Below are positions 6,181 through 27,954 of a stretch of 64,000 nt of DNA, one piece after another. How positions within the stretch are numbered: position 1 is the first letter of the stretch; each line of letters begins with the position of its first letter. Under the pieces are notes generated by a model. That model was not told the origin of the DNA, searched no databases, and saw nothing but the letters and a program-made list of their open reading frames with translations. The stretch is taken from contig JAQGGT010000004.1 in assembly GCA_028289245.1 (NCBI GenBank), positions 1-64,000 of the forward strand, in the 5' to 3' direction. This stretch comes from Candidatus Saccharimonadota bacterium (GTDB lineage: Bacteria > Patescibacteriota > Saccharimonadia > Saccharimonadales > UBA4665). Position numbers and translations under genes: made by a program.

Positions 6181-6258
6181 CCCGTCGTACCCGCATCCCT
6201 GAGTTGATAGCGTCAAAAATGCCGAGGCTGGCTACGCATCACAGACCAAGCGTAGACG

Positions 6259-6287
6259 TAGACATTTATCGATAAAAGTGGTAAAAT
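6259..6287 (+). promoter_or_regulatory. Sigma-70-type promoter
   Basis: TAGACA at 6259-6264 and TAAAAT at 6282-6287, separated by 17 nt. It faces the 417-residue gene and would give a leader of about 100 nt. No other gene lies between. Confidence 0.6.
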
Positions 6288-11893: not shown

Positions 11894-11914
11894 CTTGGCT
11901 CCGGCTGCTGGGCT
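11894..11914 (-). repeat. Left attachment site (displaced tRNA-Asn 3' end)
   Basis: A 21-bp sequence identical to 27878-27898. It contains the tRNA-Asn acceptor 3' strand, discriminator G, encoded CCA and two more bases. Only the tRNA 3' end is present here; the bases to the right are unrelated to a tRNA. This is the pattern expected when an element enters a tRNA 3' end. Confidence 0.85.
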
Positions 11915-12031
11915 ATAGCTTCGCTCCATGCTCGCTTTAATTCTTAAAGCCGCTCGCTTGGGCTCGGCATAGGTTTGCGCTGATCGCACAAACATCGAAC
12001 CGTTCGTATAGTCCAACAACAAGAGCCAAAT

Positions 12032-12054
12032 AAAAAAGCCCACTTTCGTGGGCT
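12032..12054 (-). terminator. Rho-independent terminator of the Hsp70 operon
   Basis: On the minus strand AGCCCAC-GAAA-GTGGGCT is followed by TTTTTATTT. It is the first strong terminator after the stop of the last operon gene at 12279. Confidence 0.8.
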
Positions 12055-12062
12055 CCTTTATT

Positions 12063-12092
12063 TGGCTCCCCGTAATAGAGGAAGTTATAACC
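12063..12092 (-). repeat. tRNA-3'-like sequence inside the element's left end
   Basis: The minus strand reads GGTTATAACTTCCTCTATTA then CGGGGAGCCA, and the 12032-12054 terminator follows. It shares GGTTATAACTTC, CTAT and GCCA with 1760-1788. It may be a second, decayed attachment site from a nested or earlier insertion. Confidence 0.35.
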
Positions 12093-12278
12093 ATAATTAA
12101 ACAAGATTTAGCGTACGCTTTGGCATAGCGTAAGGTGTTAGGCGCACCGGCGCTCACAGTTTCCGCGTGCTCGTAATAACAATGGCGGGGGGCTATAGTA
12201 TCGTTTTTGCACTACACGTGGCGACGGGTTAGAACCAAAAATTTTTCCAAAATTTTGGTATTTGACATTCTTAATCTA

Positions 12279-13517: not shown

Positions 13518-13548
13518 AACTTCATTATAAACCTTAAAGTAGCCGGTC

Positions 13549-14178
13549 TTACTGGCTAAGCAATATGCATGCTGTCACGGCTATTGCCCACAACGTTCCA
13601 GTGCCGACGCGTGTTACGCGACCACTTTTAGCCAATTTGCCTGACACCGACTCGGTAAAGAAAGTCAGTAGGCTAAGCACAATCATCAATCCAATACATA
13701 GTAAGCCGTACTTCCAGCCCAATAAGAGTCCGGCTGCTAAGCCAAGCTTTACATCTCCGCCGCCAATCCACCTACCAGCTGATACTTGAAATAAAATATA
13801 AGGTACGCCAGCAACTAGCAATGCTCCTAGTGCCGCACTTACGACAAACCAGCTGCTACTAAAGTGGATTGATAATCCGATTGTGTACGCAGCTGCAACG
13901 ACTACAAGAGGGCGTGTCAGTGTGTTTGGCAGTAAACGAGTTCTGGCATTCGTTAAGGCAAGTGTGATTAACAGAAACAGCGCAATACACCATATCATGA
14001 GTGTAAGTATGCCACTGCTCCAAACATTTGCTGAAAGTACTACAGCCGCGATTAGAATAATTTCTGGGTAAATATTATGGCTGACAAGTTTTCGTTCAGC
14101 CGTGCTGACTTTAGAATGCTTGAAAAGCCTCGCAAACGGCATATCAACGCCATAGTCATCGTCCGGTCTTTTACTCAT
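13549..14178 (-). CDS. Prepilin peptidase-like (A24) membrane protein, altered active site
   Basis: A 209-residue protein with about six hydrophobic helices after a basic N-terminus of about 35 residues. It has the A24 aspartic peptidase layout: LALTNARTRLLPN where the family has D-x5-LLPN/D, and GGGDVKLGLAAGLLLGWK, the conserved GxGD motif. The second catalytic Asp is present, but the first appears replaced by Asn (about residue 76). Normal members cleave and sometimes methylate type IV prepilins. No pilin or pilus ATPase gene is nearby, so its role here is open. It lies 11 nt after the Excalibur gene. Confidence 0.75.
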   Translation of the reverse strand: MSKRPDDDYGVDMPFARLFKHSKVSTAERKLVSHNIYPEIILIAAVVLSANVWSSGILTLMIWCIALFLLITLALTNARTRLLPNTLTRPLVVVAAAYTIGLSIHFSSSWFVVSAALGALLVAGVPYILFQVSAGRWIGGGDVKLGLAAGLLLGWKYGLLCIGLMIVLSLLTFFTESVSGKLAKSGRVTRVGTGTLWAIAVTACILLSQ

Positions 14179-14189
14179 GCGAGTCCTCC

Positions 14190-14456
14190 CTAGTAGCTTT
14201 CACAGCCTACTCCGTTGTGGTCAGCATCAAAGTGGTAAACATCTTTGCCGACAACTTGCACCTTATGCCGTATATCCTTGCAGTCAATGTCGTACGAAAC
14301 GTTGGGAACGCATGTTCCCGTGTAATTGTCGTTGCACTGTCCGCTTCCGCCGATACGACTAGCACTCGCACTGTGAATGTGGACGCCAATAAGTATAGCC
14401 ACGACCACGATGACCACGCCAAGCCACACCAGCTGTTGCTTGCTGATTTTCACCAC
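14190..14456 (-). CDS. Secreted or membrane-anchored Excalibur-type protein
   Basis: An 88-residue protein: a basic N-terminus, one hydrophobic helix (about residues 9-26) acting as anchor or signal, and a C-terminal domain whose DCKDI...KVQVVGKDVYHFDADHNGVGCE pattern fits the Excalibur calcium-binding domain (Cys pair plus DxDxNGxGCE loop). The domain would face outside the cell. Its start overlaps the end of the AAA+ gene by 7 nt, implying translational coupling. Confidence 0.75.
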   Translation of the reverse strand: MVKISKQQLVWLGVVIVVVAILIGVHIHSASASRIGGSGQCNDNYTGTCVPNVSYDIDCKDIRHKVQVVGKDVYHFDADHNGVGCESY

Positions 14457-15520
14457 CGCTCCACATCAGTGAACTTCTGATAATGCACCATTTCATCGGC
14501 ATTAACTGAGGGTGTAATCTTCTTTATGGTTTCTTCGAGCATAGCTTGCTCAATAACTTCTTTATCTTGCATGACGGCCATACGAGCAGCCTCATTAGCC
14601 ACCAGTTCAATGTCTGAACTTACATAGTTAGCGGTCAGTTCAGAGAGCTTGTCGTAATCTATTTCGCCTATTGGCCTGTCTGACAAGAACAACTTAAAGA
14701 GGTCATGTCGCGCTTCATCATCGGGTGGTGGTACAAAGATACGCTTGTCCATACGGCCAGCCCTCAGCAATGCAGTGTCTATTAGTTGCGGACGATTTGT
14801 TGCGGCCACGACCAGAATATTATTTTGACCAGCATCATTGAGCTGCATAAGAAACTCGTTTACTTCTTCTTGCTTATACTGCATTTCCGAGCCAAGGCTT
14901 TCGCGCTTGGGTATTAGTCCTTCGATTTCATCAATAAATACGAGCGATGGTGCCTTCAGCTTGGCAATCTCAAAGAGCTTACCAACCTTACCTACTGTGC
15001 CGTGTATATAAGAAGAGGCTATATCGGAGTGCTTCACTTCAAAAAAGTTGTAGCCTAGTTCCTCGGCCAGCTTGCGGACAATAAAAGTCTTACCGCAGCC
15101 TGGAGGACCATACAGCAGAATACCGTTTGGTACTGAGATTTTGAATTTAGCGTATTTCTCTGGGTCTTGTAGTGGCTTAATAACATCCTCGAATAGAAGC
15201 CCTTTGAGCGCTGACATGCCAGCCACTGCTTCAAAGCCTTTGATTTGCGTAAGACCCTCTAAGATGGCCGTAACATGCTCGATAGAGTGGGTTGCAGTGA
15301 TGATACCAAGATACTCAGTACCATTTACCACTATCTTTAATAAGTCCGCCTTTTTACTTTTTACGTCAGCAACACTAAGGTTCGTGAAGAGGTATAAGAA
15401 AGTCTCGTCGGATAGTAGATAAATCTCTGTGAAGAAAACTTTGTCTACCCGCTGCACCACTTCTTGCCCTGTTGGAAGTTTGAAGCCGTTATAAAGAATT
15501 GGTTTAGATGTAGTATTCAT
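14450..15520 (-). CDS. AAA+ ATPase (Cdc48/FtsH/spastin-like)
   Basis: A 356-residue AAA+ ATPase. It has a unique N-domain (about 1-95), Walker A GPPGCGKT (138-145), Walker B LVFIDEIE (193-200), sensor 1 asparagine in AATNRP (242) and the arginine-finger segment RAGRMDKR (253-260). A C-terminal helical lid follows. There is no protease domain and no membrane helix. Members of this clade thread and unfold proteins or remodel complexes. It lies 4 nt downstream of the J-like gene, so it may act on clients of the Hsp70 machine. Its aromatic pore loop is not obvious. Confidence 0.9.
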   Translation of the reverse strand: MNTTSKPILYNGFKLPTGQEVVQRVDKVFFTEIYLLSDETFLYLFTNLSVADVKSKKADLLKIVVNGTEYLGIITATHSIEHVTAILEGLTQIKGFEAVAGMSALKGLLFEDVIKPLQDPEKYAKFKISVPNGILLYGPPGCGKTFIVRKLAEELGYNFFEVKHSDIASSYIHGTVGKVGKLFEIAKLKAPSLVFIDEIEGLIPKRESLGSEMQYKQEEVNEFLMQLNDAGQNNILVVAATNRPQLIDTALLRAGRMDKRIFVPPPDDEARHDLFKLFLSDRPIGEIDYDKLSELTANYVSSDIELVANEAARMAVMQDKEVIEQAMLEETIKKITPSVNADEMVHYQKFTDVERW

Positions 15521-15524
15521 ATGC

Positions 15525-17405
15525 TTACCTTAGCCCATTACATTGCGTTGCTTGAGAATTTACTTGCTGAACAAGACTATTCTGCTGGGGAACAAGAGCA
15601 TTATAGGCATCAGTGTCTCCCGCAGTCTGGTCACTATCCATCTCAGAGTTGATTGAGTCAAGCTGGCTCTTCAGGCTATTGTATTGGTCTACACAGGAGT
15701 TGTAAGCGGCGGAGGCACCGCTGGAGTCATCAGAAGAGCCAGTGGAGCTGTCTGTTGAGCCAGCACTACCAGAAGTAGAGCTACTTGAATTGTTTGAACT
15801 ATTGCCACTGTTTGACGCGCTTATGGCTATGATAACAATGATAATGATTGCCCATGTGATTAAGCTCTTCACGTTCTTTTTACGTTTTAGCTCAGGTACC
15901 TTTTCCGCTAGACTCGCATAGATAGCCGAGTCGATTAGTATGGTTAAAAGGGTACCCTCAAACTGGTCTTTGAAGTGCTTCTCAGCTTGCTGTACAACAC
16001 TGTTACGTAAATTATCAACAGCCTCCCCGCTCTTTTGGTCTTTGCCGAGTAAGGCCGTGAGGCGACTAATTTCTGCCAAGACGTTATCGACATATTCCTG
16101 ACTAATGTTCGTGTCGCTTAAATAACTCAGTACGAACTCGACAGTCGAAGCTAACAGGTCTTTGGCTTCGCCAAACTTGTTCTTGTCATATAATTCTTTG
16201 CCTCTTTTGAACTGTGCAACAGCTATGGCTGTAACGCACCAGACAACTCGCTGTGCCAAGAAGCTTTGCAAATCACCATTGCTCTTATTCCTACCTTGCT
16301 CTTGGGTAATAAGCTCTAGCGCGCCCTCGTAGTCTTCCGCTTCAAGTAATTCGTTAATCGGTTGTACTACCTTATCCTGCGATACCATCTTGCGAAGGTC
16401 ATTTAGGTCATCCTCAAGACGTGAGCGTAATGCGGGCGTACCACTAATCTCCAGTGCAATCTTTAATATGCTTCCCGACTTACCGGCATCATTAAGATTA
16501 TTGTATAAATCGAGAGCAACCCCGCGCATCCCTTCTGCCGCTTTATCGCGCATCGTTTTTGACTGGCTATCATTGTAGTAGCCAAGGTCTTTTAGTTTCT
16601 CAAAGCTGCGCCGTAGTGTTACGACGAGACCCTTAAGCTGAGCCATTTTCTCTTTGGAGATAATCTTCTCATCACTTATCTTTAGGCTTTTTAGCTTTGC
16701 TGAGGCATCGTTAATTGTCTCGTAAATTGGAGCCAGTAAGTCCTTTTCGACCTTTGCACCCTTAACTTTGAATATCCGCTGGAACTCAGAAACGTAGCTG
16801 CTGTCACCCTTTTCCTTACTCAAGTCAGCGTAGTAGTCTGCCAATATACCAACAACCCTGTCTTTTAGGTCGGCAAAGGCATCATCGCTGGTGCCGACTT
16901 CATCACTAAGCTGGTATATCTTGGTAAAAGACGACCAAAATTTGTCCGAATCAATCAAGCTCTGCCAGACGATTAAGCCTCGACTTGGCGAAAACCTGGA
17001 GCCGTTAGCCGCTACGATGCTGAGCAATACGGCTAGATTGCGTTTAGCTATAAATCCTTTTGCAGTCTCGCTGCCGCCAGCTTCGAGCCACTTTGAAGCC
17101 ACGCTTGCAATATCTTCATCGTTCAGTTTAGCGAAATCAGCATCTACGGCATTTGCGCGGTCAAACCAAAAGAAGTAGTCAGTCAGCCGTTTATTTGGCG
17201 ATGCTAGATTTTGAAGCGCAACCTTTACGCTGCTTTCCGTACGTACAGGCTTTGCGAATGGTAGGTCGGCGTCGTCATACTCTGGTACCTCATCAATCTT
17301 TAGAAGATTGGTAAGCTCTTTAGCGCGCTTGTTAATGTCTTTCTGGGTGGCACTACTGTCCAGGCCAAGTACATTAAAAGCATTTTTGCTAAAGAGGTCA
17401 GCCAT
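15525..17405 (-). CDS. J-like N-domain, transmembrane, coiled-coil protein
   Basis: A 626-residue protein. Residues about 8-75 (AFNVLGLDSSATQKDINKRA, then a helical stretch) look like helices I-II and IV of a J-domain, but the HPD tripeptide that stimulates Hsp70 is absent. A long helical region with TPR-like pieces follows (about 80-505). A hydrophobic helix lies at about 512-529, then a Ser/Gly/Thr-rich linker (529-568) and a coiled coil with two Cys (569-626), predicted to be outside the cell. Its ATG overlaps the Hsp70 stop by one base (TAATG). Role inferred: membrane-bound partner of the Hsp70. Confidence 0.75.
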   Translation of the reverse strand: MADLFSKNAFNVLGLDSSATQKDINKRAKELTNLLKIDEVPEYDDADLPFAKPVRTESSVKVALQNLASPNKRLTDYFFWFDRANAVDADFAKLNDEDIASVASKWLEAGGSETAKGFIAKRNLAVLLSIVAANGSRFSPSRGLIVWQSLIDSDKFWSSFTKIYQLSDEVGTSDDAFADLKDRVVGILADYYADLSKEKGDSSYVSEFQRIFKVKGAKVEKDLLAPIYETINDASAKLKSLKISDEKIISKEKMAQLKGLVVTLRRSFEKLKDLGYYNDSQSKTMRDKAAEGMRGVALDLYNNLNDAGKSGSILKIALEISGTPALRSRLEDDLNDLRKMVSQDKVVQPINELLEAEDYEGALELITQEQGRNKSNGDLQSFLAQRVVWCVTAIAVAQFKRGKELYDKNKFGEAKDLLASTVEFVLSYLSDTNISQEYVDNVLAEISRLTALLGKDQKSGEAVDNLRNSVVQQAEKHFKDQFEGTLLTILIDSAIYASLAEKVPELKRKKNVKSLITWAIIIIVIIAISASNSGNSSNNSSSSTSGSAGSTDSSTGSSDDSSGASAAYNSCVDQYNSLKSQLDSINSEMDSDQTAGDTDAYNALVPQQNSLVQQVNSQATQCNGLR

Positions 17406-19948
17406 TACTTTGTAATTCCAGCCATGCTACCGCTGATAGCTTCCTGCTCCTCGGCAGGCAACATGTTCAGTAAGTTGCGTACACATCGCTTTAGCTCTTC
17501 AAAGTCATCTTGTTCGATGGCAGTATCGGCCTTACCAATGTAATACTCGCCATCCGTTTGATTGCTAAGTTTTGATTTGTTGCTCTTAATTTCATTGAGC
17601 TGCCATACCCAGAAACTTGGGTCTTCAACTAATGCTCTGATTGTTACGTCACGGACTTGCTGTATCACGCGGCTGAGCATAGCCTTATCACCATCTTGGA
17701 TGGCTTTATTACCCTCTTTGCGGAGTACGTCAATCTGGTCACTTATGCGCTGCTTCTCCTTGCCATCGCTCAAGTTGCCAATCAGTTCATCGGCGCTGTC
17801 AAAACATTCCTCAAGCTCTGATTTAAGTTGAGGCAGTTCCTTTTCGTGCTCTAGCTCATCGAGTTTAGTTTCTAACTGTCGCAAGTCTCGCTCGGCCTTA
17901 TTTTTGTCGTCCGTATCCATGTCGGCATTCTTTATGTTGCCTGATAATTCGTTTACGCTATTTTCAAGCTCGTCGTATTGCTCTTTAGGCACGTTGGACT
18001 TAACTTTACTTAGGCGTGCTCTCTGGGCACTTAAGTCTGCTTCTAGGCGCTTCACGTCAACCGCTTGGGCGTATGTATCAGCGCGAGCATTCAAAGTAAG
18101 TTCAATGCTAGGTATGTACACCTCGACGGTTACGGTGCGAGACCCGTCAACTTCTATCTTTAGGTCAACTTCTGTATCAGCTGGCAAATCGTAAGGGAGC
18201 TGCTTGCCGTCAATTTCCAATGTGGTTATTAGTTGGTTGCGGCTTGGTACGTCAGCTTCGCCCTCGTATACCTTTATTGGTAACTGATTATCTTTACCTT
18301 TTTCCAGTTTGGTCAGTGTGCGGTATGTTCTGGTTTCGCTAAGAGGCGGCACGCTGTTTTTGTCAAAATAAGGGTCACAAACCTCTTTAAGCTGAAAGTC
18401 GTTGCTGATACCTTTTTCGGCGTATATCACCCCAATGGTATGCGGTATTGGCGAACCGGAGACAGTAAGACCGTGCGTAATACTGAATTGGTCGGGATAT
18501 ATTGGCAATGAGTTACCGCTGTCATCAAACAGGTATAGCCAATAAACGCTTTGTTCACCCTTGGTCACGGCTACCGTGTCAAAAAATTTGCCCGACTTAA
18601 GTTTTATTTTAGAGCTGGTATAGCTACCATTTTCTGCTTGTATCTGAACGAAGTAGTCTTGTTCGGCATCTTTTAGCTCATCAATAACGCCCGTTACTGT
18701 CTCTTCATCTTCGGAAGTCATGGCCTCATAATTCAACTTCACCTTAACTTCGCCACTGATGATGTCATGGTCTTCCGATAATACGTCTTGAGGCACGCGC
18801 TGGCTCAGGCCGAATAGACACGCCCCTCTTGCGACAATAGTTAATGGGTCAACAGAGTTATCAATAGTGAGGTCAAATTCATGCTCAAGAGTCTGCTTTA
18901 TATATGGTATTTGAGTGGGGCCACCAACTAAGACAATTTTGCTGACAGAAGAAGCTTGCACCCCAGCCTCTTTAATCGTCTTGGTGGTCAGCTCAACGGT
19001 TTCAGCTACTTTTGACTTAATGAGCTGCTCGAACATATCACGGGTCAAATCCACTGACACGTACACGTCTTCGCCGCCCGCTAACTCTTTACCAATATCT
19101 TCTATTTCGATAGTGGTTTTGTCGAACTGACTTAGCTCAATTTTGGCTGTCTCTGCCAACGCCTTAAGTCTCGCAAATGCACTACGTACGCTTAGCTTTT
19201 CGCTGCTTCGGTCAAAATCTTTAATCTTATACTTGTCTAAAATTGCAGGCTTAATGATTTCGTCAACAATAAGCCAGTCAAAATCCTTACCACCCAAGAA
19301 GTTGTTGCCGTTGTGGGCAAGGACAGTCAACATGCCATCTTTAGAAGAAATCAGCGCAACGTCGAATGTTCCGCCGCCCAGGTCATAAACGAGCCAGTTC
19401 TGGTTTTTAGTGTTATCAAAGCCATAGGCGATAGCGGCAGCAATCGGCTCTTGTAGCAGTACCACATACTTGAACCCAGCAAGCTGACCTGCTCGTTTAG
19501 TGGCTTCAGCCTGTAGTGACGAGAAATAGGCCGGAACGGTGATAACAGAGTACTGTGTATTGAAATCTGGGTACTTTCGTTTTACATCTTCCTTGAGGCT
19601 TTTCAGTATCTCCGCCGACACTTCTTCCGGTGACATATCAGTGTCGATACGGTCGAAGTGCACCTTTTCGGACGTACCCATTAGGCGTTTAACTTCTGCC
19701 TTATTATTGCTGAACTCTTCCTCCGAGGAACTCTTATACAGCTTGTCATAAGCCTTGCGCCCAACTACTTTATTAGTAGCCTTATCAATGCCAAATACCG
19801 ACGGTGTGTACTCATCTTGCTGAGAGTTTTTTACAATTTCGGCCTTACCATTAACATTGACAGCAACTTCAGAGTTGGTGGTACCGAGGTCAATGCCAAT
19901 CTTGATGACACTGTCTTCTTTCGTTTTGTCCGACTTATTAGGGTTCAA
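17405..19948 (-). CDS. Divergent Hsp70 (DnaK-like) chaperone
   Basis: An 847-residue Hsp70, longer than the usual 610-640 of DnaK. The ATPase domain is intact: phosphate-1 IGIDLGTTNSEVAV (17-30), phosphate-2 LVYDLGGGTFDVALI (186-200) and adenosine motif VLVGGPTQIPYI (339-350). The substrate-binding part (about 395-620) is strongly divergent, and the C-terminus (about 640-847) is a long charged coiled-coil region in place of the normal lid. It is coupled to the GrpE-like gene (11-nt overlap) and the J-like gene (1-nt overlap), so it is probably a dedicated chaperone and not the housekeeping DnaK. Confidence 0.95.
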   Translation of the reverse strand: MNPNKSDKTKEDSVIKIGIDLGTTNSEVAVNVNGKAEIVKNSQQDEYTPSVFGIDKATNKVVGRKAYDKLYKSSSEEEFSNNKAEVKRLMGTSEKVHFDRIDTDMSPEEVSAEILKSLKEDVKRKYPDFNTQYSVITVPAYFSSLQAEATKRAGQLAGFKYVVLLQEPIAAAIAYGFDNTKNQNWLVYDLGGGTFDVALISSKDGMLTVLAHNGNNFLGGKDFDWLIVDEIIKPAILDKYKIKDFDRSSEKLSVRSAFARLKALAETAKIELSQFDKTTIEIEDIGKELAGGEDVYVSVDLTRDMFEQLIKSKVAETVELTTKTIKEAGVQASSVSKIVLVGGPTQIPYIKQTLEHEFDLTIDNSVDPLTIVARGACLFGLSQRVPQDVLSEDHDIISGEVKVKLNYEAMTSEDEETVTGVIDELKDAEQDYFVQIQAENGSYTSSKIKLKSGKFFDTVAVTKGEQSVYWLYLFDDSGNSLPIYPDQFSITHGLTVSGSPIPHTIGVIYAEKGISNDFQLKEVCDPYFDKNSVPPLSETRTYRTLTKLEKGKDNQLPIKVYEGEADVPSRNQLITTLEIDGKQLPYDLPADTEVDLKIEVDGSRTVTVEVYIPSIELTLNARADTYAQAVDVKRLEADLSAQRARLSKVKSNVPKEQYDELENSVNELSGNIKNADMDTDDKNKAERDLRQLETKLDELEHEKELPQLKSELEECFDSADELIGNLSDGKEKQRISDQIDVLRKEGNKAIQDGDKAMLSRVIQQVRDVTIRALVEDPSFWVWQLNEIKSNKSKLSNQTDGEYYIGKADTAIEQDDFEELKRCVRNLLNMLPAEEQEAISGSMAGITK

Positions 19949-20423
19949 GGAGTATCACCTTTGCCTTTCGTATTAGTTTCCCTTTGAGCGTAACGGCAGG
20001 TTCGTGTGTCTCTTTGATGACTGCCTGCTTAAGGGTTGCATCCTTTTCAACAGCGAGTACCTCTAGGTTCATGCCCTCGTTATACTTCTGGTCAGTGTAG
20101 TCAGTGACCTTCACGTCGTTTCGGTCTAGATACCGTACAAGCTTAGCTTGTGAGTTTTGGAGTGCCTTGGCCTGGTCGTCTTTCAAATCAGGCTGCGCTT
20201 TTTCCAATCGCTTTTGCAGTCGCCACACTTCTATGGCTAAATCAACAAGGTTGTTTGTCTCTGGCGATATCTCAAGAAATTTCGGTTCCACAGACCGAGC
20301 TACTTGTAATCGTACTGTGCTGATTGCTACTAGTAGACGCTGAAAGGCCAGGAGGATGAGCACGGTGGCAATGATTATGGCCACTACTACAATAATGATT
20401 AGGTAAATTTGGCTGTGGTTCAT
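19938..20423 (-). CDS. Membrane-anchored GrpE-like protein
   Basis: A 161-residue protein from the ATG at 20423. It has one N-terminal transmembrane helix (about 6-28), a helical stalk (about 55-100), and a C-terminal beta domain whose order (YNEGMNLEVLAVEKD, then EPAVTLKGKLIRKAKVILLEP) resembles the GrpE head that opens the Hsp70 nucleotide cleft. Ordinary GrpE is soluble and has no membrane helix. The call rests on pattern and position directly before hsp70; the identity is remote. It would tether nucleotide exchange to the membrane. Confidence 0.6.
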   Translation of the reverse strand: MNHSQIYLIIIVVVAIIIATVLILLAFQRLLVAISTVRLQVARSVEPKFLEISPETNNLVDLAIEVWRLQKRLEKAQPDLKDDQAKALQNSQAKLVRYLDRNDVKVTDYTDQKYNEGMNLEVLAVEKDATLKQAVIKETHEPAVTLKGKLIRKAKVILLEP

Positions 20424-20493
20424 TATAACTTTCTTCTTAGGTACATAATACAACAAGAGGTCGAAACATCGTTAAGCAAAACTTAAGTCGCAC

Positions 20494-21075
20494 CTACTCC
20501 TCCGCCAAATCAGGGTTAATCATATAGCCGATAGCAGTTAAGATTTTATCATCCCAGAATTTATGATTTGACTGTACGAACGCGGCTAGTAAGGGCTGTG
20601 ATGTCCTTGTATAAGCCGCATACTCACGGTCGGTGTGGGTTGCTAGTTGAGTGCCAGGTAGTTCCTGCTTTGCTCTCATGTAGATTGAGGGAATAAGCGC
20701 TTTGTATGTGGCTGCTATAGCGTAAACAAGGGCATTTTGGATAACTGTCTCATAGAGCCTTGCTTGTTTTGAAGCTTTCTGGTTATTAAACATCAGGTCA
20801 TCTACGAGCTGTTGCATGGTGTATGACTTTCGTGAAGATATCATTGATATGAGTAAAATCTTCATGTTTTCAAGTTTACTACCGTCTATGTCCAGGTTAT
20901 TCAGTACTCCGAAATAGACATAAGCTCTAAAGAAATATTTTTCAATTGCTTTCCTCTGCCGCTCCGGCTGACGTAGGTTATAGAGTAGGTCAACGATAAT
21001 TTGCGTCTGTAGCGATGCTGGCAGCTCGTTGAGGGTAGCGCCGCTACTGATAGGCGACTTAATGTTCATATCCAT
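20494..21075 (-). CDS. Hypothetical helical protein, first gene of the Hsp70 operon
   Basis: A 193-residue soluble, mostly helical protein without a recognised domain. The ATG at 21075 was chosen because AAGGAG (21082-21087) lies 6 nt before it. It is the promoter-proximal gene of the operon, downstream of the structured leader RNA and its terminator. Seventy nt separate it from the GrpE-like gene. Possible roles are co-chaperone, adaptor or regulator; none can be shown. Confidence 0.65.
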   Translation of the reverse strand: MDMNIKSPISSGATLNELPASLQTQIIVDLLYNLRQPERQRKAIEKYFFRAYVYFGVLNNLDIDGSKLENMKILLISMISSRKSYTMQQLVDDLMFNNQKASKQARLYETVIQNALVYAIAATYKALIPSIYMRAKQELPGTQLATHTDREYAAYTRTSQPLLAAFVQSNHKFWDDKILTAIGYMINPDLAEE

Positions 21076-21111
21076 GTGCATCTCCTTAGTTGATAGCTAA
21101 GGTGCCGTAAA

Positions 21112-21136
21112 ATAAAAAGCGACACCGTAAGGTGTC
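21112..21136 (-). terminator. Rho-independent terminator or attenuator before the Hsp70 operon
   Basis: On the minus strand GACACC-TTAC-GGTGTC is followed by GCTTTTTATTTT. It lies between the promoter at 21244-21272 and the first operon gene. Its 5' arm shares three bases (21134-21136) with the closing stem of the upstream RNA, so the two folds compete at their border. Confidence 0.8.
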
Positions 21137-21237
21137 TAAGCCATTCACAAGCCAGCTTTCGCCGAGTTGCTTATACGGTGCCGCTTTCAACGGCGAACCG
21201 CAATAAATTGCGAACTGGCGTGATAATGACTTAGACG
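21112..21237 (-). ncRNA. Structured RNA of unknown class upstream of the Hsp70 operon
   Basis: From the predicted start near 21237 the RNA can fold into a three-way junction. The long closing stem begins with 7 perfect pairs (GUCUAAG at 21236-21230 with CUUAGAC at 21140-21134), extends through UCAUU with the opposing AAUGG (one G-U pair), and ends with GCCAG/CUGGC. Inside are a CGCAA-UUUA-UUGCG hairpin and a second arm pairing UUCGCCG with CGGCGAA and UUG with CAA. A terminator follows. I do not recognise a known riboswitch or RNA family. It may be a free small RNA or a transcription-attenuating leader. Confidence 0.65.
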
Positions 21238-21243
21238 AGAGCA

Positions 21244-21272
21244 ATTATACCATCTACCCCTGTAACTCACAA
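21244..21272 (-). promoter_or_regulatory. Strong sigma-70-type promoter for the RNA and Hsp70 operon
   Basis: On the minus strand TTGTGA (21272-21267), a 17-nt spacer and a perfect TATAAT (21249-21244). Transcription would begin near 21237, exactly at the foot of the RNA's closing stem. Confidence 0.75.
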
Positions 21273-21289
21273 GCAAAAGCGGAATAGGC

Positions 21290-21295
21290 TATACT
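21290..21295 (+). promoter_or_regulatory. -10 box of a leaderless gene
   Basis: TATACT followed by 6 nt and the ATG at 21302. It is divergent from, and interleaved with, the Hsp70-operon promoter, so the two directions could compete. Confidence 0.5.
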
Positions 21296-21301
21296 CAGTT
21301 A

Positions 21302-21478
21302 ATGGTTAGAATTAGCCCCGAACGCATTAAAGAACTACAGGCGTTGCTCAAGGAGCAGACTGGCAAAGACTATAGCGATGAAGAAGCTCAAGAAGCTGGG
21401 CTAGCAATCATGCGGTTTGTTGTGGCCAAAGAACAGCGCCGACAAGAACTCGATAAGCGGCAAACGAAGAAGAAATAG
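21302..21478 (+). CDS. Small helical protein (MVRISPERIKELQALLKEQT type)
   Basis: A 58-residue charged protein. It has the pattern I-S-x-E-x-I-K-E-L-Q, then TGKDYSDEEAQEAGL and a hydrophobic helix, then a basic tail. Small proteins with an S-x-E-x-A core like this recur in CPR genomes, to my knowledge without known function. The gene at 24191-24364 in the same element has the same layout. A TACT-type -10 box 6 nt upstream suggests leaderless expression. It is divergent from the Hsp70 operon, so a regulator of the shared promoter region is possible. Confidence 0.7.
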   Translation: MVRISPERIKELQALLKEQTGKDYSDEEAQEAGLAIMRFVVAKEQRRQELDKRQTKKK

Positions 21479-21492
21479 TTAAGCCGTTGCTT

Positions 21493-21540
21493 AGTTTCGC
21501 AGTTTTGCATCTACCTATAGGTTTGCGGAACTGCGAAACT
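21493..21540. repeat. Inverted repeat, element palindrome copy 1
   Basis: AGTTTCGCAGTT (21493-21504) is perfectly inverted at 21529-21540, around a TATAGGT-containing centre. A related sequence with CTTCGCAG, TATAGGT and TGCGAAACTG in the same order lies at 26051-26097. It may be a terminator for the small gene before it or a protein-binding site. Confidence 0.55.
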
Positions 21541-21668
21541 GGTCAGTATTTGTGTAGAAAATAACAGAGGTGGCAGAAACGTAGCCACTTATTTAATCTT
21601 AATCCCATTTTGTTGTATTATATGTAACAGAATATTGTGTTAGTGCTTGAGGGGTGTAGGTATATAGA

Positions 21669-22805
21669 ATGGTATGCGACGAGACTGAGCTTGCGCTCTT
21701 GGCCTTACCGCCGGACATGGATTGCCTGGAGGCTGAGCCAATGTCTTCGACAGTGGAATCAAACGCAACTGTAGTTCTATCGAAGTATCAGATTGTTCGG
21801 TTCCATGGTCGAGCCATGATAGAACTGAGCCACCCTTACCCGCACTTCCAACCACTGACTAAAGGCCTGCTAAGTGAAGTTGCGAAGCCATTACTAGGCT
21901 GGCTCAAGCAGCGCCATTTAAATCATCTTCACGATTACCTGATTAGCACTGCGCCAGACTTGAGCTGGAGTGACCAGTTTGTGGTGTTTGGTGACCTGAA
22001 TGGCTCCAAGGCTAACGTTTCGGTTTGGGATATGAATGCGCTGGAATTTCGGCATGACATATCACCACGCGACTGCGTGTGGCGCTCACCGTATCCAGTA
22101 AGCCGTAATACTGCCCCACGACAAATTCCGCTTATCATGCAGCTTGCTGGAGACAATGCCGCCGTTTACGATGACATCATGCAGAGTTTGGCTCCACTCG
22201 TTATGGCATGTAAACCCGAAGGTGTTGTGTGGTGGGTTGGAGGCGACACTGAGAGCAAACAGCTCCTAATGGAGGCGGTGCATCGAATACTACCAAACCA
22301 ATTAGCGAAAATAAGTGCCGAGCGTTTAAGTGGCGGCCGTCAAACACCGTTATTAAACGGCAATCTGGGTAACGTTGTGGAGAGCGGCACTGCTGCGGTG
22401 GCGGACGTAAGTCTTTATCGAAACCTGGCTAAACACCAGACTTTCGGTGTCCATAAGTACCGCAGCCAGGATGGTATGAATATAAAGGGCAACATCCATC
22501 ATATATTCTCCTCAGCGTACACCCCGACTTTTAGCACGAAGACTTGGAGCACTCAGATGCGTACCGTAATCATTCCTTTCGGCCAGCTGACGGACGGTAA
22601 TAAGTTCCCTGAATTAACCACAGATTTTCATGGTCGATTGGTGGCTGAGATGTGTTCGTATGCCGTTCAAATTCGAGACCAGGGGTATCGGTATTCCCTG
22701 TCGGCAACGGCGGTCGCTACCGGCCGTGACATACCAGAGATGAGTACGAGCAAGTTTACAACACTCTCGCCTCTATTTTCACCTACAGGTGAGTTCATTT
22801 GGTAA
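21669..22805 (+). CDS. D5-like (SF3 helicase-related) degenerate protein
   Basis: A 378-residue protein. The middle VVWWVGGDTESKQLLMEAVHRILP sits where phage and plasmid D5-type SF3 helicases have their Walker A, but the GK(S/T) is changed to ESK. The later WSTQMRTVIIPFGQL stretch matches the R-x-x-x-x-PF motif common near the end of D5-like helicases. An ATPase-dead paralogue, a replication initiator or a primase accessory are possible. It begins the plus-strand module and lacks a Shine-Dalgarno sequence; a downstream ATG (21717) is an alternative start. Confidence 0.5.
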   Translation: MVCDETELALLALPPDMDCLEAEPMSSTVESNATVVLSKYQIVRFHGRAMIELSHPYPHFQPLTKGLLSEVAKPLLGWLKQRHLNHLHDYLISTAPDLSWSDQFVVFGDLNGSKANVSVWDMNALEFRHDISPRDCVWRSPYPVSRNTAPRQIPLIMQLAGDNAAVYDDIMQSLAPLVMACKPEGVVWWVGGDTESKQLLMEAVHRILPNQLAKISAERLSGGRQTPLLNGNLGNVVESGTAAVADVSLYRNLAKHQTFGVHKYRSQDGMNIKGNIHHIFSSAYTPTFSTKTWSTQMRTVIIPFGQLTDGNKFPELTTDFHGRLVAEMCSYAVQIRDQGYRYSLSATAVATGRDIPEMSTSKFTTLSPLFSPTGEFIW

Positions 22806-22873
22806 GCGCTTAACCTTGCTTTATCTCTGTTAAAGCGGAGAATATAAGCAGTTATTATGATATGGAGCTGTAG

Positions 22874-23851
22874 ATGAGTTTGCCTTTGTGGTCTAAGCGT
22901 GATGCAGAAATGTACCGTGGGCTTAGCCTATTCCCCAAAGAACTAGAGGGAAAATTCCTCAATGTTGACGAATTCAGGAGCCATTTTAGAGACCTTTATG
23001 GCCGACCGATTCAAGACATCGTGGAAGCGCTTAGTCACTACGGCCAGCAAGCCTATTTCAAGTATGAAATTAGGCTTACGGCTAAATACCTCAAGCGCGG
23101 CCAGGCACTTGCGCAAGCTACGGCTGCTCTTAGCAAATTACAGCCCGAACCCAAGTCACCCACCGATGCGTTTGACGGGCTGAGCGAACCAGTTCACGCC
23201 AAAGTTCTGGCCGAGCAACCGCTCACCGTGGCAGAGGTCAGAAGCTTACCTGATGAGGCAAGGTTTTACCTAGCGTTTATGCTGTCGGACATAGCCAGAG
23301 AGCGACTTCGCGAGGAGCTGGCCATCTACAACGACAATACCTTTATCCAGCCGTCGCGGTTGGTGAAAAGTAAGAAAGCTGGAACGGCCACGAACACTGT
23401 GTCCGTGCCAGCGCCCGACGCTCAGCCAGTCGCAAATTTATCGCAATCCACTCCAACCTTAACGTCTAAGGCCGCAAAGTTATCGCCGCTCAGCCTGCAC
23501 GACATAAGACTAACGCCTGAAAGCTACGACAAACATAAGGGAGTCTTACATCTAGCGCCATTCCACGACAGAATAATTGCGGGTAAGGGTGGGGTTAAAC
23601 GCTCGAACGGCAAGAAATACGACCAGTGCTGGATTATGGAGTGCATCTTCAAATCTGACAAGTCCCTCAAGCATGGTGTTGAAATCAGTTCAATCCTAGG
23701 CATTCATAAGAGCATCGTTGACAAAACTACTACGAAGAAAATTGAGAACGCTAAGACTGCAATTAACGACAAAGTCGCCGCTGGTGGCGGCCCCAAAAAT
23801 CTGATTAAAATGCAGAAAGGCATAGTCTTTTTGAACAATTCGTATCTGTAA
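22874..23851 (+). CDS. Hypothetical protein with C-terminal winged-helix-like part
   Basis: A 325-residue protein of unknown function. GGAG lies about 8 nt before the ATG. The N-terminal half is helical and charged, a Pro/Ser/Thr-rich linker lies at about 165-215, and the last 90 residues (WIMECIFKSDKSLKHGVEIS, later KGIVFLNNSYL) look like a winged helix. Being in the replication module, it could be a DNA-binding initiator or regulator. It is followed by a terminator. Confidence 0.5.
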   Translation: MSLPLWSKRDAEMYRGLSLFPKELEGKFLNVDEFRSHFRDLYGRPIQDIVEALSHYGQQAYFKYEIRLTAKYLKRGQALAQATAALSKLQPEPKSPTDAFDGLSEPVHAKVLAEQPLTVAEVRSLPDEARFYLAFMLSDIARERLREELAIYNDNTFIQPSRLVKSKKAGTATNTVSVPAPDAQPVANLSQSTPTLTSKAAKLSPLSLHDIRLTPESYDKHKGVLHLAPFHDRIIAGKGGVKRSNGKKYDQCWIMECIFKSDKSLKHGVEISSILGIHKSIVDKTTTKKIENAKTAINDKVAAGGGPKNLIKMQKGIVFLNNSYL

Positions 23852-23896
23852 AACACACTGAAAATCTTTTTCAGACAAGCCCTGTGCAAATAATAA

Positions 23897-23924
23897 GCCC
23901 GCAAATAACTAAGCGGGCATTTTA
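23897..23924 (+). terminator. Rho-independent terminator
   Basis: GCCCGC / GCGGGC stem with a 10-nt loop, then ATTTTACT. It lies 46 nt after the preceding stop. Confidence 0.7.
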
Positions 23925-23951
23925 CTGTCCAAGAAAGATGCGGATTTCATT

Positions 23952-24188
23952 ATGGGGGCAGAAACAAAACTAAGAGACCTAGGCCTGTGCGCCGCCTTGG
24001 CCAGTCTTGGTTTTGAGGTGCTCGAAATAGAACGTGATGCAGGCGGCCAGGGCTATTTCATATTTATAAAAACAGCCGAGCTTGAGCAAGCCATAAGCGC
24101 CTATTGGTCAAACACACTGGAGGTAAAGGCTCGAACCTACTCTGATGCCCTCAAGATGCTTAAATCGCGCCTGTATAGCGAGCGTTGA
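23952..24188 (+). CDS. DUF5659-like small protein
   Basis: A 78-residue protein with the layout of DUF5659: TKLRDLGLCAALASLGFEV, a short charged loop, YFIFIKTAELEQAISAYW, and a final helix SDALKMLKSRLY. Such proteins are frequent in mobile elements of Gram-positive and CPR bacteria; their role is unknown. It begins a tightly spaced run of three genes: the next gene starts 2 nt after its stop. Confidence 0.7.
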   Translation: MGAETKLRDLGLCAALASLGFEVLEIERDAGGQGYFIFIKTAELEQAISAYWSNTLEVKARTYSDALKMLKSRLYSER

Positions 24189-24190
24189 TT

Positions 24191-24364
24191 ATGCGGCTCA
24201 GCGAACCACTTATTGCTAAATTTCAGCAGGCTCACCTTGAAGAGTTTGGTGAAGCCATTTCTGTCGAGACTGCTGAGGCAGAACTGCTTGACCTGGCTGA
24301 GCTAGTACTAATCACTCAGTCGGCAAGAATCGTGGACATCGAGAATAGGCGGAATGATGGATAA
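24191..24364 (+). CDS. Small helical protein, relative of the 21302 gene
   Basis: A 57-residue protein: LSEPLIAKFQQAHLEEFGEA, then ISVETAEAELLDLAELVLI and a charged tail. It has the same pattern as the 58-residue protein at 21302-21478 (helix, G-x-x-(Y/I)-S-x-E-x-A, hydrophobic helix). It starts 2 nt after the DUF5659 gene and overlaps the CHC2 gene by 11 nt, so it is part of the operon. Confidence 0.7.
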   Translation: MRLSEPLIAKFQQAHLEEFGEAISVETAEAELLDLAELVLITQSARIVDIENRRNDG

Positions 24365-24950
24365 AGCCTTTCTATCCGACCGGTTACCATACCAAAATCA
24401 TAAACTGACTCAAGCAGAAGTGCTGGAGGCCTTTGCTACCGATGCAAAGCAAATTATACCCGCCCTTATCAGTGAGCTGACTAATCACCGCAAGATGCTG
24501 GTAACTCGTATCGGTGATGCAGTTACCCTCATCAACGCCGAAAGCGAGGATGAAGCATTTCGCTACTACTGGACGCTCTGGCTAGCACTCAACGAGGGCG
24601 AGGAACTACGGGCGCTCGAAGCAAAACTGGCACGACACCGGCGCATGCTGAGTGTAATCGCTGGCAAACCGACGCCTACCGGCAGGCTCACGGACGGTGC
24701 CATTGAGGCCGCCCGCGACTATCCAATCCAAGACCTTCTTGATGTTACTTTTAGGCGTAGCGGTAATCGGCTTGTCGGCCTGTGCCCATTCCATGCCGAG
24801 AAGTCGCCAAGCTTTTATGTGTTTTTGAACCAAAACAAAGCCCACTGTTTTGGATGTCAGAAGTCGGTCGATTCTATTAGTGCATACATGGAACTTAACG
24901 GCTGTGACTTCAAGGCGGCCGTGCTAGCGCTAGCGGGAGGTGTGGTATGA
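24354..24950 (+). CDS. CHC2 zinc-finger (DnaG-like) protein
   Basis: A 198-residue protein. Residues about 1-105 are helical; residues 120-195 form a CHC2 zinc finger with C144, H147, C165 and C168 in GLCPFHAEKSPSFYV and AHCFGCQKSVDSI. In DnaG-type primases this finger binds template DNA. The catalytic TOPRIM domain is absent, so it is a stand-alone finger that may act with another primase subunit or with the RepA-like ATPase whose start overlaps its end by 4 nt. Confidence 0.85.
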   Translation: MMDKAFLSDRLPYQNHKLTQAEVLEAFATDAKQIIPALISELTNHRKMLVTRIGDAVTLINAESEDEAFRYYWTLWLALNEGEELRALEAKLARHRRMLSVIAGKPTPTGRLTDGAIEAARDYPIQDLLDVTFRRSGNRLVGLCPFHAEKSPSFYVFLNQNKAHCFGCQKSVDSISAYMELNGCDFKAAVLALAGGVV

Positions 24951-26047
24951 CACCATCACCAAATCCGGCATTCAAAAAGGTCGAGGATATTGGGCGTAAC
25001 CATGTGCCTAGTCCTGAAGTTGCGGAGGCTATCGCGCAACGTCGGGTACAGTCAGAGCCTCAGAAAGAGTTGTCGCCAGGCGTAATCCCACTGTCGCTTG
25101 AGGAAATGCGAAAGATGGATTTTGACCCGCCGGAGTTCATCGTTGACCAGCTATTTTTGAAAAACGGCATAAATGCTATTTCGGGCGTTCCCGAAAGCCA
25201 CAAGTCGTTTCTGGCACTTGACGCTGCTAAGTCACTGGCGCTCGGTATGCCTTTTTTGGGCACCTTCCCTGCGCAGCAATGCAAGACACTCATTATCGAC
25301 GAAGAGAACAGCTACGGTCGTGTGCTTGCAAGGTTTGATGCTTTGACCAACGAGAAGCTCGATATAGGTGTCTTATGCGGCGGCCACATAAAAATAGATG
25401 AGCCTGGCACGGTCGAGAAGATTATTGAATATTGTCATGCCCACGGCTTTGGAACAGTTATCTTTGACTCCCTCAGTAGCATTCATAGCGCCGACGAGAG
25501 CAGTAACTCGCAAATGGCAAAAGTCTTTGAGTATTTCATACGCCTTAAACAAGCAAACTTAACCGTCTTTTTTATACACCACGAGCCTAAAAGCAGTAAG
25601 AGTAATCCAAGCCACGCTAGTCTGCGCGGTGCCGGGGACATTTGGGCTAAATGTGACACGCATATCTCATTGAGGCACCCTGATAAAGATGTGAATACTA
25701 TTATTGCCACGCAGCTTAAAAACAGGGACGCTGAACGACTGCCTGAATTTGTGTTAGCGGTTCATAGAGAAGATGATAGGACATGGTTTGAATATATTGG
25801 CGTAGCGCCGGAGCAAGTAGGTTTAGACGGTCGCACTGATGATGCGATTATTCAACTACTCGCCACTGCCGACGGCGAGCTGTATCAGGGTCAGATTATC
25901 GAAGCTCTTTTGGGCGCTCAAGGAATTGGCGGCAAAAGGAAGATACCTGAACGCCTTAACGCTCTTGCAAAGACCAAATTGGATTGTAGAACGGCAGAGC
26001 ATGGACGACGGTACTACTCAGTAAAGCCGGAGCAGCTCGATGGTTAG
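24947..26047 (+). CDS. RepA-like RecA-fold ATPase (AAA_25 type)
   Basis: A 366-residue RecA-fold ATPase resembling plasmid RepA hexameric helicases and the helicase part of primase-helicases. Walker A is GVPESHKS (80-87), strand 2 LIIDEEN carries the conserved acidic pair (115-121), Walker B TVIFDSLSS and the IHHEPK motif follow. A C-terminal winged-helix-like tail (GGKRKIPERLNALAKTKLD) is present. It is coupled to the CHC2 gene and probably provides replicative helicase activity to the element. Confidence 0.85.
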   Translation: MTPSPNPAFKKVEDIGRNHVPSPEVAEAIAQRRVQSEPQKELSPGVIPLSLEEMRKMDFDPPEFIVDQLFLKNGINAISGVPESHKSFLALDAAKSLALGMPFLGTFPAQQCKTLIIDEENSYGRVLARFDALTNEKLDIGVLCGGHIKIDEPGTVEKIIEYCHAHGFGTVIFDSLSSIHSADESSNSQMAKVFEYFIRLKQANLTVFFIHHEPKSSKSNPSHASLRGAGDIWAKCDTHISLRHPDKDVNTIIATQLKNRDAERLPEFVLAVHREDDRTWFEYIGVAPEQVGLDGRTDDAIIQLLATADGELYQGQIIEALLGAQGIGGKRKIPERLNALAKTKLDCRTAEHGRRYYSVKPEQLDG

Positions 26048-26050
26048 TTC

Positions 26051-26097
26051 AGCTTCGCAGCCGCGCAGTCTCTTTATAGGTGTGCGAAACTGCCAGG
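26051..26097. repeat. Element palindrome-related sequence copy 2
   Basis: Contains AGCTTCGCAG, TTTATAGGTG and TGCGAAACTG in the same order and spacing as 21493-21540, but the arms are less perfect. It lies just after the RepA-like gene and before the recombinase promoter. Confidence 0.45.
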
Positions 26098-26117
26098 CTA
26101 GCGTGGAGCTGCTTAGG

Positions 26118-26147
26118 TTGGCAAAATATTGCCTAAGATTATATAAT
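26118..26147 (+). promoter_or_regulatory. Promoter of the recombinase gene
   Basis: TTGGCA (26118-26123), an 18-nt spacer and TATAAT (26142-26147). The transcript would have a leader of about 130 nt containing two terminator-like hairpins. Confidence 0.7.
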
Positions 26148-26168
26148 GAATATGTTCACACTAACGGT

Positions 26169-26271
26169 AAACACGCGAGAAGTGTTTTTATTTTCAGGCC
26201 TATAAGGGCGACTCGATATCTGAAAGTAGCTTTTCGCTGCCGGAAGTGTGAACAATCGAGCCGCCCTTTTT
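26169..26271 (+). promoter_or_regulatory. Two tandem terminator-like hairpins in the recombinase leader
   Basis: The first is AAACAC/GTGTTT (26169-26187) followed by TTATTTT. The second is a 14-position stem with one mismatch (AAGGGCGACTCGAT at 26204-26217 with 26255-26268) ending in TTTTT just before the GGAG ribosome binding site. Both precede the start codon at 26284, so they should restrict read-through into the recombinase. Confidence 0.6.
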
Positions 26272-26283
26272 GATGGAGAAAAT

Positions 26284-27921
26284 ATGATTAACCGCGAACT
26301 AAAGTATCTGCGCTACAGGCTCTACGCCCGCAAATCTACCGATACGGAAGATAAACAGGTGCAGTCTCTTGACGACCAGATAAAGTATATGATGGAAATT
26401 GCTAAGCGCGAGGGTCTGCATATTGTCGGCGAGCCAATCGAAGAGAAGATGTCGGCAAAGCGCCCGAATGTGCGGCCTAAGTTTACCGCCATGTTAGAGG
26501 AGATTGAGAGCGGCAAGATTGATGGTATCGTCTGCTGGAAACTAGACCGCCTGTCTCGTAACCCTACTGATAGTGGCCGCATCCAACAGCTCTTGCAAGA
26601 CGAGAAGTTGCAGCATATACAAACAACCGAGAAGAGTTACTTCCCCGAAGATAACGCCATTGTTTTCAGCGTTGAAGCCGGTATGTCTAATCAATACATC
26701 CGTGAGCTGGCGACAAACACCAAGCGTGGTATGCGCTCCAAAGCTGAAAAGGGCGATAAGCCAGGTGTGCCGCCGGTTGGCTATCTCAACGATAAGGCTG
26801 AGAAAGTCATCATTGCTGACCCTGCGAACTTTAAGCTCGTTCGCATACTCTGGGAAAAGATGCTGACCGGCACTTATTCGATAGCGCAGCTGGTGGATAT
26901 AGCGGAGTTCGACTTGAATATTCGTAGACCAGTGCGCGGCAGGACTGGTGGCAATGCTATTGCCTACTCTAGCCTTTGTGCGATGTTCAAGAACCCATTT
27001 TATAAGGGCAAACTCATGTTTAACGGCCAGGAGTTCAATGGCAATCAGCCTGCTATGGTGACTGAGGAAGAGTTTGAACGGGTGCAACAAATCATTGACC
27101 CAACTCATACCGCTCGCCCAAAGAGCGAGATATATGACTTTCAGCTACGCAATCTGTTTAAGTGTGGCGAGTGTGGCTTTGCTATTACCGCCGAGCAGAA
27201 ATTCAAGACCATTAAATCCACTGGTGAACGCAAGGCGTACATTTATTACCACTGTACTGGTCGGAACAAAAAGGCTAATTGCAGCCAACGCCACCTGCAC
27301 GTTGCCGAAGATGAGCTGATGCGGCAAATTAAAGAAAAACTGAGCAGGTTCACCATTAAACCTGAGTTTTATAAGCTGGCGATTGAAGCGCTTGCAGAGC
27401 AAGAAGATGAGGTTGTAGCTAAAGACCAAACAAAGACTTTGGCCAGAGACAAAGCCATTGAAAAGAAGAAGCAAGCGATTACTAACCTGCGCCGCATGAG
27501 ATACGGCGGTGAGGCCGATGATGATGCTTGGTACTTTGCTGAAATGAAAACACTTGAGGATGAGCTAGCGGCGCTACAGAGTGGGCGTAATAAAGCTGAG
27601 CACAAAGCCCGCGATTGGCGTGCTGTGGCTGACGAGACGTTTACGTTTGCCCGCTACGCCAAAGAGGAATTTGATAGCGATGACTTAGAGAAAAAGCGTA
27701 CGGTAGTTGTAAAGCTAGGCGAGAAGCTTGAGATTTTGGACAGAGCTATACAATTCAGGCCTAACAAATACTTTATTCCGCTTGAAAAAATGAATGATAA
27801 CGAAAAACAGGCTCTAGAAACGGTTAGAACCGGCTCCCAACAGGGGAAAACCGGCTCTAATTCTGACCTAAATCTATCTTGGCTCCGGCTGCTGGGCTCG
27901 AACCAGCGACATCCTCGTTAA
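26284..27921 (+). CDS. Large serine recombinase (element integrase)
   Basis: A 545-residue serine recombinase. The ATG at 26284 follows GGAG by 6 nt. The resolvase domain (about 5-150) has nucleophile Ser18 in LYARKS and the arginine-rich KLDRLSRNP motif. The Recombinase domain spans about 165-270. A zinc ribbon has C294, C297, C324 and C333. A coiled coil follows (about 380-500). It should catalyse integration and excision of the element. The last 15 codons (from about WLRLLGSNQRHPR) are read through the att repeat and into tRNA-Asn on the opposite strand, so integration rebuilds the gene's 3' end. Confidence 0.95.
   Translation: MINRELKYLRYRLYARKSTDTEDKQVQSLDDQIKYMMEIAKREGLHIVGEPIEEKMSAKRPNVRPKFTAMLEEIESGKIDGIVCWKLDRLSRNPTDSGRIQQLLQDEKLQHIQTTEKSYFPEDNAIVFSVEAGMSNQYIRELATNTKRGMRSKAEKGDKPGVPPVGYLNDKAEKVIIADPANFKLVRILWEKMLTGTYSIAQLVDIAEFDLNIRRPVRGRTGGNAIAYSSLCAMFKNPFYKGKLMFNGQEFNGNQPAMVTEEEFERVQQIIDPTHTARPKSEIYDFQLRNLFKCGECGFAITAEQKFKTIKSTGERKAYIYYHCTGRNKKANCSQRHLHVAEDELMRQIKEKLSRFTIKPEFYKLAIEALAEQEDEVVAKDQTKTLARDKAIEKKKQAITNLRRMRYGGEADDDAWYFAEMKTLEDELAALQSGRNKAEHKARDWRAVADETFTFARYAKEEFDSDDLEKKRTVVVKLGEKLEILDRAIQFRPNKYFIPLEKMNDNEKQALETVRTGSQQGKTGSNSDLNLSWLRLLGSNQRHPR
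27878..27898 (-). repeat. Right attachment site within tRNA-Asn
   Basis: A 21-bp sequence identical to 11894-11914. Here it forms the 3' end of the complete tRNA-Asn gene, and on the other strand the last part of the recombinase coding sequence. Confidence 0.85.
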
Positions 27922-27954
27922 CAGCGAGGCGCTCTACCACTGAGCTAAGCCGGA
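27880..27954 (-). tRNA. tRNA-Asn (anticodon GTT)
   Basis: A complete cloverleaf of 75 nt including encoded CCA. The acceptor TCCGGCT pairs with AGCCGGA, the discriminator is G, the D-arm is GCTC/GAGC, the anticodon arm is CCTCG-CTGTTAA-CGAGG with anticodon GTT, and the T-arm has TTCGAGC. It is the integration target of the element that lies on its 3' side. Confidence 0.95.

Follow-up and report, generated by a model that had tools for sequence, protein, structure and literature searches.

In crcB and pfl RNAs, the conserved structure shares its 3′ part with the terminator (PMC2864571), and in the Guanidine-IV riboswitch (GGAM-1) a conserved structure, a pseudoknot, and an integral terminator make up an ON switch that works by transcription termination (PMC7736828). 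Here, we describe a leader RNA that is to be set beside them. It is encoded on the minus strand of a 64,000-nt stretch of DNA (the window) in contig JAQGGT010000004.1 of a Candidatus Saccharimonadota bacterium (GCA_028289245.1), and comparison with its homologues identifies it as a member of a previously uncatalogued RNA family of many Saccharibacteria and other Patescibacteria. It very probably serves as the 5′ leader of an operon carried as mobile cargo, where it would act in cis as a transcription-attenuation switch. Two mutually exclusive pairings with evolutionary support underlie this reading: a covarying pseudoknot and an intrinsic terminator that is kept with little covariation.

The predicted transcript, as far as the terminator, spans 21112 to 21237, with its start near 21237. 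Its promoter, TTGTGA (21272-21267)-N17-TATAAT (21249-21244), is present as the original prediction had placed it. The first stem, P1, forms seven perfect pairs between GUCUAAG (21230-21236) and CUUAGAC (21134-21140) and closes a three-way junction, in which P2 pairs GCCAG (21215-21219) with CUGGC (21151-21155), P3 forms the short arm (21199-21212), and P4 forms the long arm from UUCGCCG (21191-21197) and CGGCGAA (21158-21164). The intrinsic terminator hairpin, GACACC-UUAC-GGUGUC (21121-21136), is followed by a U-tract at 21114-21118, and its first bases, GAC (21136-21134), are at the same time the last bases of P1. Both stems, the two arms, and this 3-nt overlap had been read correctly from the sequence alone. 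What had been missed is the central pairing, the antiterminator pseudoknot, whose 5′ strand AAAGCGGCACCGUA lies inside the P4 loop (21174-21187) and whose 3′ strand UACGGUGUCGCUUU (21116-21129) is made of the terminator loop, the 3′ arm, and part of the U-tract. The 3′ side of the P1/P2 internal loop carries GUGAAUGG (21141-21148), which is conserved in a subset of the family only. The window RNA folded with z scores of −6.0 and −6.6, and none of 200 shuffles folded as well. The minimum free energy (MFE) fold of this RNA alone gives a different P4 region; comparative evidence backs the arms as given here.

No Rfam 15 model matched the window RNA at the gathering threshold, and none did so credibly at E values up to 10. 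A weak match to CRISPR-DR33 (E 2.3) falls on the terminator hairpin on the opposite strand and was set aside as chance. A description of the leader RNA was not found in the literature searched, where subscription papers were mostly beyond reach. By DNA search, one homologue was obtained among 60 relatives, and matches were present in 14 of the 393 genomes of the order, the window's own genome included. A covariance model (R1) built from ten homologues, the window RNA among them, found matches in 60 of these 393 Saccharibacteria genomes, at up to 8 copies per genome. The window RNA was matched at 21114-21236 with an E value of 5.6e-26, which is that of a training-set member, and this was the sole match in its genome; E values from covariance models are rough. 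With a second covariance model, 24 of the 380 phylum genomes searched were matched; one of them belongs to the same class but lies outside the order, and several come from more distant families. When a strict pattern was run over 84,980 bacterial and archaeal species, 35 stretches were matched; the record titles, from which the taxon was taken, name Candidatus Saccharibacteria or other Patescibacteria for nearly all of these and are unspecific for a few.

We read 84 family copies in full, among which copies from the same genome and from close relatives are not independent. Independent homologues retain the same structural parts. TATAAT is matched at 5 or 6 positions in 75 of the 84 members, the P1 foot lies 6 to 7 nt beyond it in nearly all, and a U-rich 3′ end is present in every one of the 84; the −35 box is not conserved (TTG at that distance in 14 of 84). 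In a structure-fitted alignment, which leans towards the structure, all 24 pairs of P1 to P4 covary, including 7/7 in P1 (97% of cells paired) and 7/7 in P4. An unfitted MAFFT alignment showed covariation at 16 of 37 pairs, those of the pseudoknot counted in, and had 94.1% of P1 cells paired. P2 covaries in both alignments, and P3 and P4 do so in the structure-fitted one. Compensatory stem changes among homologues, which the original prediction had named as the check to be made, are thus strong, and together with the missing Rfam match they bear out its description of a new-looking structured RNA. The pairing of the terminator itself is retained in 94.4% of family cells, though it covaries little. 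Few unpaired bases are conserved; they comprise UAARCA, which follows the pseudoknot strand, and, in part of the family, the GUGAAUGG region, where a GAAUGG-like motif occurs in 32 of 82 members. Other conservation is mostly at paired positions.

The alignments show the P4 loop (consensus AAANGGCACCGC-UAARCA) to be complementary to the terminator 3′ arm plus U-tract, typically over 12 to 14 contiguous pairs, G-U wobble being accepted among them, and RNAalifold proposed this helix unprompted. We examined it in an alignment of 64 copies that had been fitted to P1 to P4 and not to the pseudoknot helix. Of its cells, 94.9% were paired versus 85.5% in shuffles, and 9 of 13 pairs were altered on both sides, with 82 double-changed cells versus 24.5 in shuffles. 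None of 500 shuffles reached the values seen in the family, and controls in which the strands were slid gave 31 to 66% pairing. The MAFFT alignment agreed, with 98.4% of the helix paired. Free of any alignment, the longest helix between an RNA body and its own terminator averaged 12.8 bp, compared to 8.2 bp with swapped terminators and 7.1 bp with shuffled bodies, and the own terminator was a better match than those of other members in 81 of 82 RNAs. In the distant members L122 and L124, all coupled segments vary jointly, the terminator reading GACGACC-UGC-GGGUCGUC and the loop GGGCGACUCGC.

The covarying pairings and their mutual exclusivity, the promoter, the U-tract, and the gene context are shown by the sequences as described; how the switch works, in which direction, and that a ligand exists are inferred. 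RNA polymerase would start at the foot of P1 and make P1 to P4. The emerging terminator 3′ arm and U-tract would then pair either with their own 5′ arm, so that transcription stops, or with the P4 loop as the antiterminator pseudoknot, so that it continues into the gene. The antiterminator would start at the terminator's own loop (UUAC or UUGC), which presumably emerges ahead of the 3′ arm, while P1 takes up the first three bases of the terminator. Since the 3′ arm can pair with the P4 loop and GAC within P1, the folded domain and the terminator are mutually exclusive, and a signal that stabilizes or destabilizes the folded domain would set expression. An ON switch is expected because the same overlap logic has been described for crcB and pfl RNAs and for ON switches generally. 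This expectation rests on the analogy with the fluoride (crcB) and ZTP (pfl) riboswitches, in which the folded domain likewise excludes an overlapping terminator. The leader RNA differs from them in its structure and gene associations, and their Rfam models gave no match at the gathering threshold or at E 10. It also differs from Guanidine-IV, whose model found no match either, in that its pseudoknot consumes the terminator 3′ arm and the U-tract. The transcription-attenuating layout proposed originally, in which the pseudoknot had been missed, is supported by covariation and by the close downstream gene on the same strand.

Across the family, the median energy is −22.8 kcal/mol for the antiterminator duplex versus −9.3 kcal/mol for the terminator hairpin, the pseudoknot penalty being excluded. 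For the window RNA, we computed −50.4 kcal/mol for the terminator state, −43.0 for the domain with both pseudoknot strands open, and −22.4 for the pseudoknot duplex alone; since the penalty is not in these energies, the figures show only that the two states can compete. Several points weigh against a switch of this kind. Members L118, L114, L120, and L130 are among those with weak computed terminators (−0.5 to −3 kcal/mol) and strong antiterminators; to close a pseudoknot of 12 to 14 bp within the P4 loop while transcription is under way is topologically demanding; and conserved unpaired bases are few compared with a typical metabolite aptamer, so that sensing may involve a protein or another partner than a small molecule.

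Two further arrangements were considered and abandoned. The T-box antiterminator contains an ACCGC-type strand that acts against the terminator, and it was such a strand that suggested a T-box here. No T-box model matched at the gathering threshold or at E values up to 10, and a stem I/specifier domain was not seen in the leader RNA. As an alternative OFF state, we examined hairpin B, present in the MFE fold of the window RNA, which ties up the antiterminator strand by pairing it with GCGGU from upstream of P4. It is not supported family-wide, since 396 of 500 shuffles equalled it on pairs changed on both sides and the own-versus-swapped comparison was weak (5.4 versus 4.9 bp); at most, some members may have it.

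The position of the family relative to genes bears directly on whether the RNA acts in cis. In 55 of the 84 copies, an open reading frame (ORF) of at least 45 codons, with a start codon and a Shine-Dalgarno (SD)-like sequence, begins no more than 60 nt away on the same strand. Random positions gave 5.1%, and the opposite side of the RNA gave none among 84. Under looser criteria the median distance from RNA to gene is 41 nt. In L097, two leader copies stand in tandem before one gene, as do the paired copies of tandem riboswitches. The original prediction had offered a separate small RNA as its other option. Such an RNA, which would act in trans, end at a plain terminator, and have a downstream gene that is incidental or read through, would account for the RNA having its own promoter and terminator, and a stable terminated product of about 125 nt would arise in either case. 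We regard it as improbable, given the one-sided placement of genes, the tandem copies before a single gene, and a covarying complementarity to the RNA's own terminator that has no obvious use in a plain small RNA. The terminator sequence GACACC-N-GGTGTC, moreover, has only a few occurrences per genome, mostly at the leader RNA itself, which makes a broad role in trans unlikely.

The genes behind the leader appear to encode mostly membrane or surface proteins. A membrane segment was predicted for 45 of 67 non-redundant first genes versus 174 of 601 ORFs from the same loci (p = 1.6e-9), as called with a crude hydropathy threshold against a background that includes spurious ORFs. Recurrent first-gene families are large surface-type proteins, DUF4352-type membrane proteins, and a small TM2-like protein (the surface-type and TM2-like names were given by eye, without a Pfam hit), and other targets include DNA methylases, GmrSD, and an OLD-like ATPase. 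The leaders in L093, L100, L101, and L078, which precede genes for large surface proteins, carry another conserved motif, AGTTCCTT...CCAAACATGACCTTA...GTTTGG, 11 to 21 nt past the terminator, with CCUU repeats that could mask an SD sequence.

In the window, the first gene after the RNA encodes a 193-aa protein (20494-21075, minus strand; SD sequence at 21082-21087), a homologue of which also stands behind the RNA in L054. The rest of the operon (14450-20456, minus strand) encodes a GrpE-like membrane protein, an 847-aa Hsp70, a membrane protein with a J-domain-like N terminus, and an IetA-like AAA+ ATPase. Pfam supported GrpE at 1.5e-4 (below the curated cut-off), HSP70 at 4.1e-87, and AAA at 9.5e-36; the J-domain was read by eye only and had no Pfam hit. 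An Hsp70/GrpE pair likewise follows the leader RNA in L067. As to whether the operon is a known defence system, PADLOC matched the AAA+ protein only (IetA-like), and the assignment was dropped; the Hsp70/GrpE-like/AAA+ cargo operon (14450-21081) possibly serves in defence or membrane quality control.

A serine recombinase (Pfam Resolvase, Recombinase, and Zn_ribbon_recom) is encoded at 26248-27921 on the plus strand. A 21-bp attachment repeat, CTTGGCTCCGGCTGCTGGGCT, lies at 11894-11914 (plus strand), and its exact copy at 27878-27898 (plus strand) falls within the 3′ end of tRNA-Asn (27880-27954). Given this repeated tRNA-Asn 3′ end, the leader RNA, its operon, and the recombinase are most likely parts of a single 16-kb integrative element at tRNA-Asn. 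The RNA does lie ahead of an Hsp70 operon, as originally stated, but the operon would be cargo of that element rather than chromosomal heat-shock genes. The element (11894-27898) also contains a gene for a primase-like zinc finger protein.

The link to recombinases extends to the family. Serine recombinases form the commonest neighbour family, found in 29 of 84 loci and mostly upstream and divergent (23 ORFs), and in the 24 genomes searched PF07508 occurs within 6 kb of 18 of 49 RNA sites versus 1.43 expected (p = 2e-14). This strong association, the scarcity of conserved unpaired bases, and the fact that the stems are variable while the loop and terminator are more constant would fit a special case of the cis-attenuator, as opposed to a riboswitch that binds its ligand directly. 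In it, an RNA-binding protein of Patescibacteria, possibly one that the mobile elements encode, would choose between terminator and antiterminator by binding to the P1/P2 internal loop or to the P4 loop. We put this forward only tentatively, as no candidate partner gene is common to all loci, the commonest family reaching 29 of 84, and many copies precede surface-protein genes with no recombinase nearby. The same recombinases, together with the long inverted repeat and its frequency in mobile elements, might suggest that the element works as DNA, for example as a recombination site of the serine recombinase with an attC-like folded single strand. This is very improbable: the −10 box and the U-tract are conserved at fixed positions, G-U wobble is tolerated in the pairs, the attachment repeats of the window's element lie elsewhere (11894 and 27878), and for many copies no recombinase is nearby. 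On these grounds a recombination site or integron attC was rejected. A phage or plasmid origin was rejected as well, since BLASTN found no match in the phage and plasmid collections. One contig classified as viral in IMG/VR (L167; 12,286 bases) bears the leader RNA at 6207-6267 and may be a misclassified integrative element.

The proposed cis-acting attenuator also has a counterpart in an RNA family already in Rfam. In L107, a LOOT RNA (RF03000, listed as a small RNA) lies 1.1 kb downstream of the leader RNA, at 4135-4252, and further LOOT copies are in L168-L203; R1 does not report the L107 copy. The RF03000 model, in turn, had no match to the window RNA even at E 10 and none to a relative of it, nor did it match at the leader RNA in 18 homologous loci, although it does match elsewhere in L107. 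LOOT is present in 65 of the 393 genomes of the order, with one copy in the window's own genome (G000:C1:437574-437690), and 6 of 13 LOOT sites lie within 3 kb of a serine recombinase by comparison of positions. In 25 located copies, the loop of the long LOOT hairpin formed on average 13.4 bp with its own adjacent terminator versus 9.0 bp with swapped ones, and the own terminator was favoured in 24 of 25. This complementarity was found in the present analysis and is not part of the Rfam definition. LOOT therefore resembles the leader RNA in its hosts, in the frequent serine recombinases, in being followed by a terminator and a gene, and in having a loop complementary to the 3′ arm of its own terminator, whereas its fold consists of consecutive hairpins and that of the leader RNA is a three-way junction closed by P1. 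On the basis of the complementarity in 24 of 25 copies, we read LOOT as probably another attenuator leader, one that differs in structure but would work by the same kind of mechanism.

Gene regulation in Patescibacteria is almost unknown, and a 2024 review called it "completely unknown" how switching between attached and swarmer cells is controlled (PMC11665869). The leader RNA represents a multi-copy, strongly covarying RNA regulator whose mechanism can be tested by two-base mutations. Its predicted targets comprise membrane and surface proteins together with the cargo of mobile elements. For LOOT, an orphan Rfam family, it suggests a mechanism that can be put to the test, and it may provide a natural starting point for inducible expression tools, which the field lacks. 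More speculatively, and with a good deal of doubt, Patescibacteria might gate integrative-element cargo and surface proteins by a dedicated RNA layer, in which at least two unrelated folds, the leader family and LOOT, would have converged on a loop that captures the terminator 3′ arm and U-tract; the two may share a cue, for instance attachment to a host, starvation, or the entry of the element into a new cell.

Unusual covariations in LOOT have been remarked on by the authors of CaCoFold (PMC7657543). In L175, L193, L195, L197, and L198, a short conserved hairpin, AAGTGG...CCACT, stands directly past the −10 box and before the annotated LOOT start, and the Rfam LOOT model may thus begin too late.
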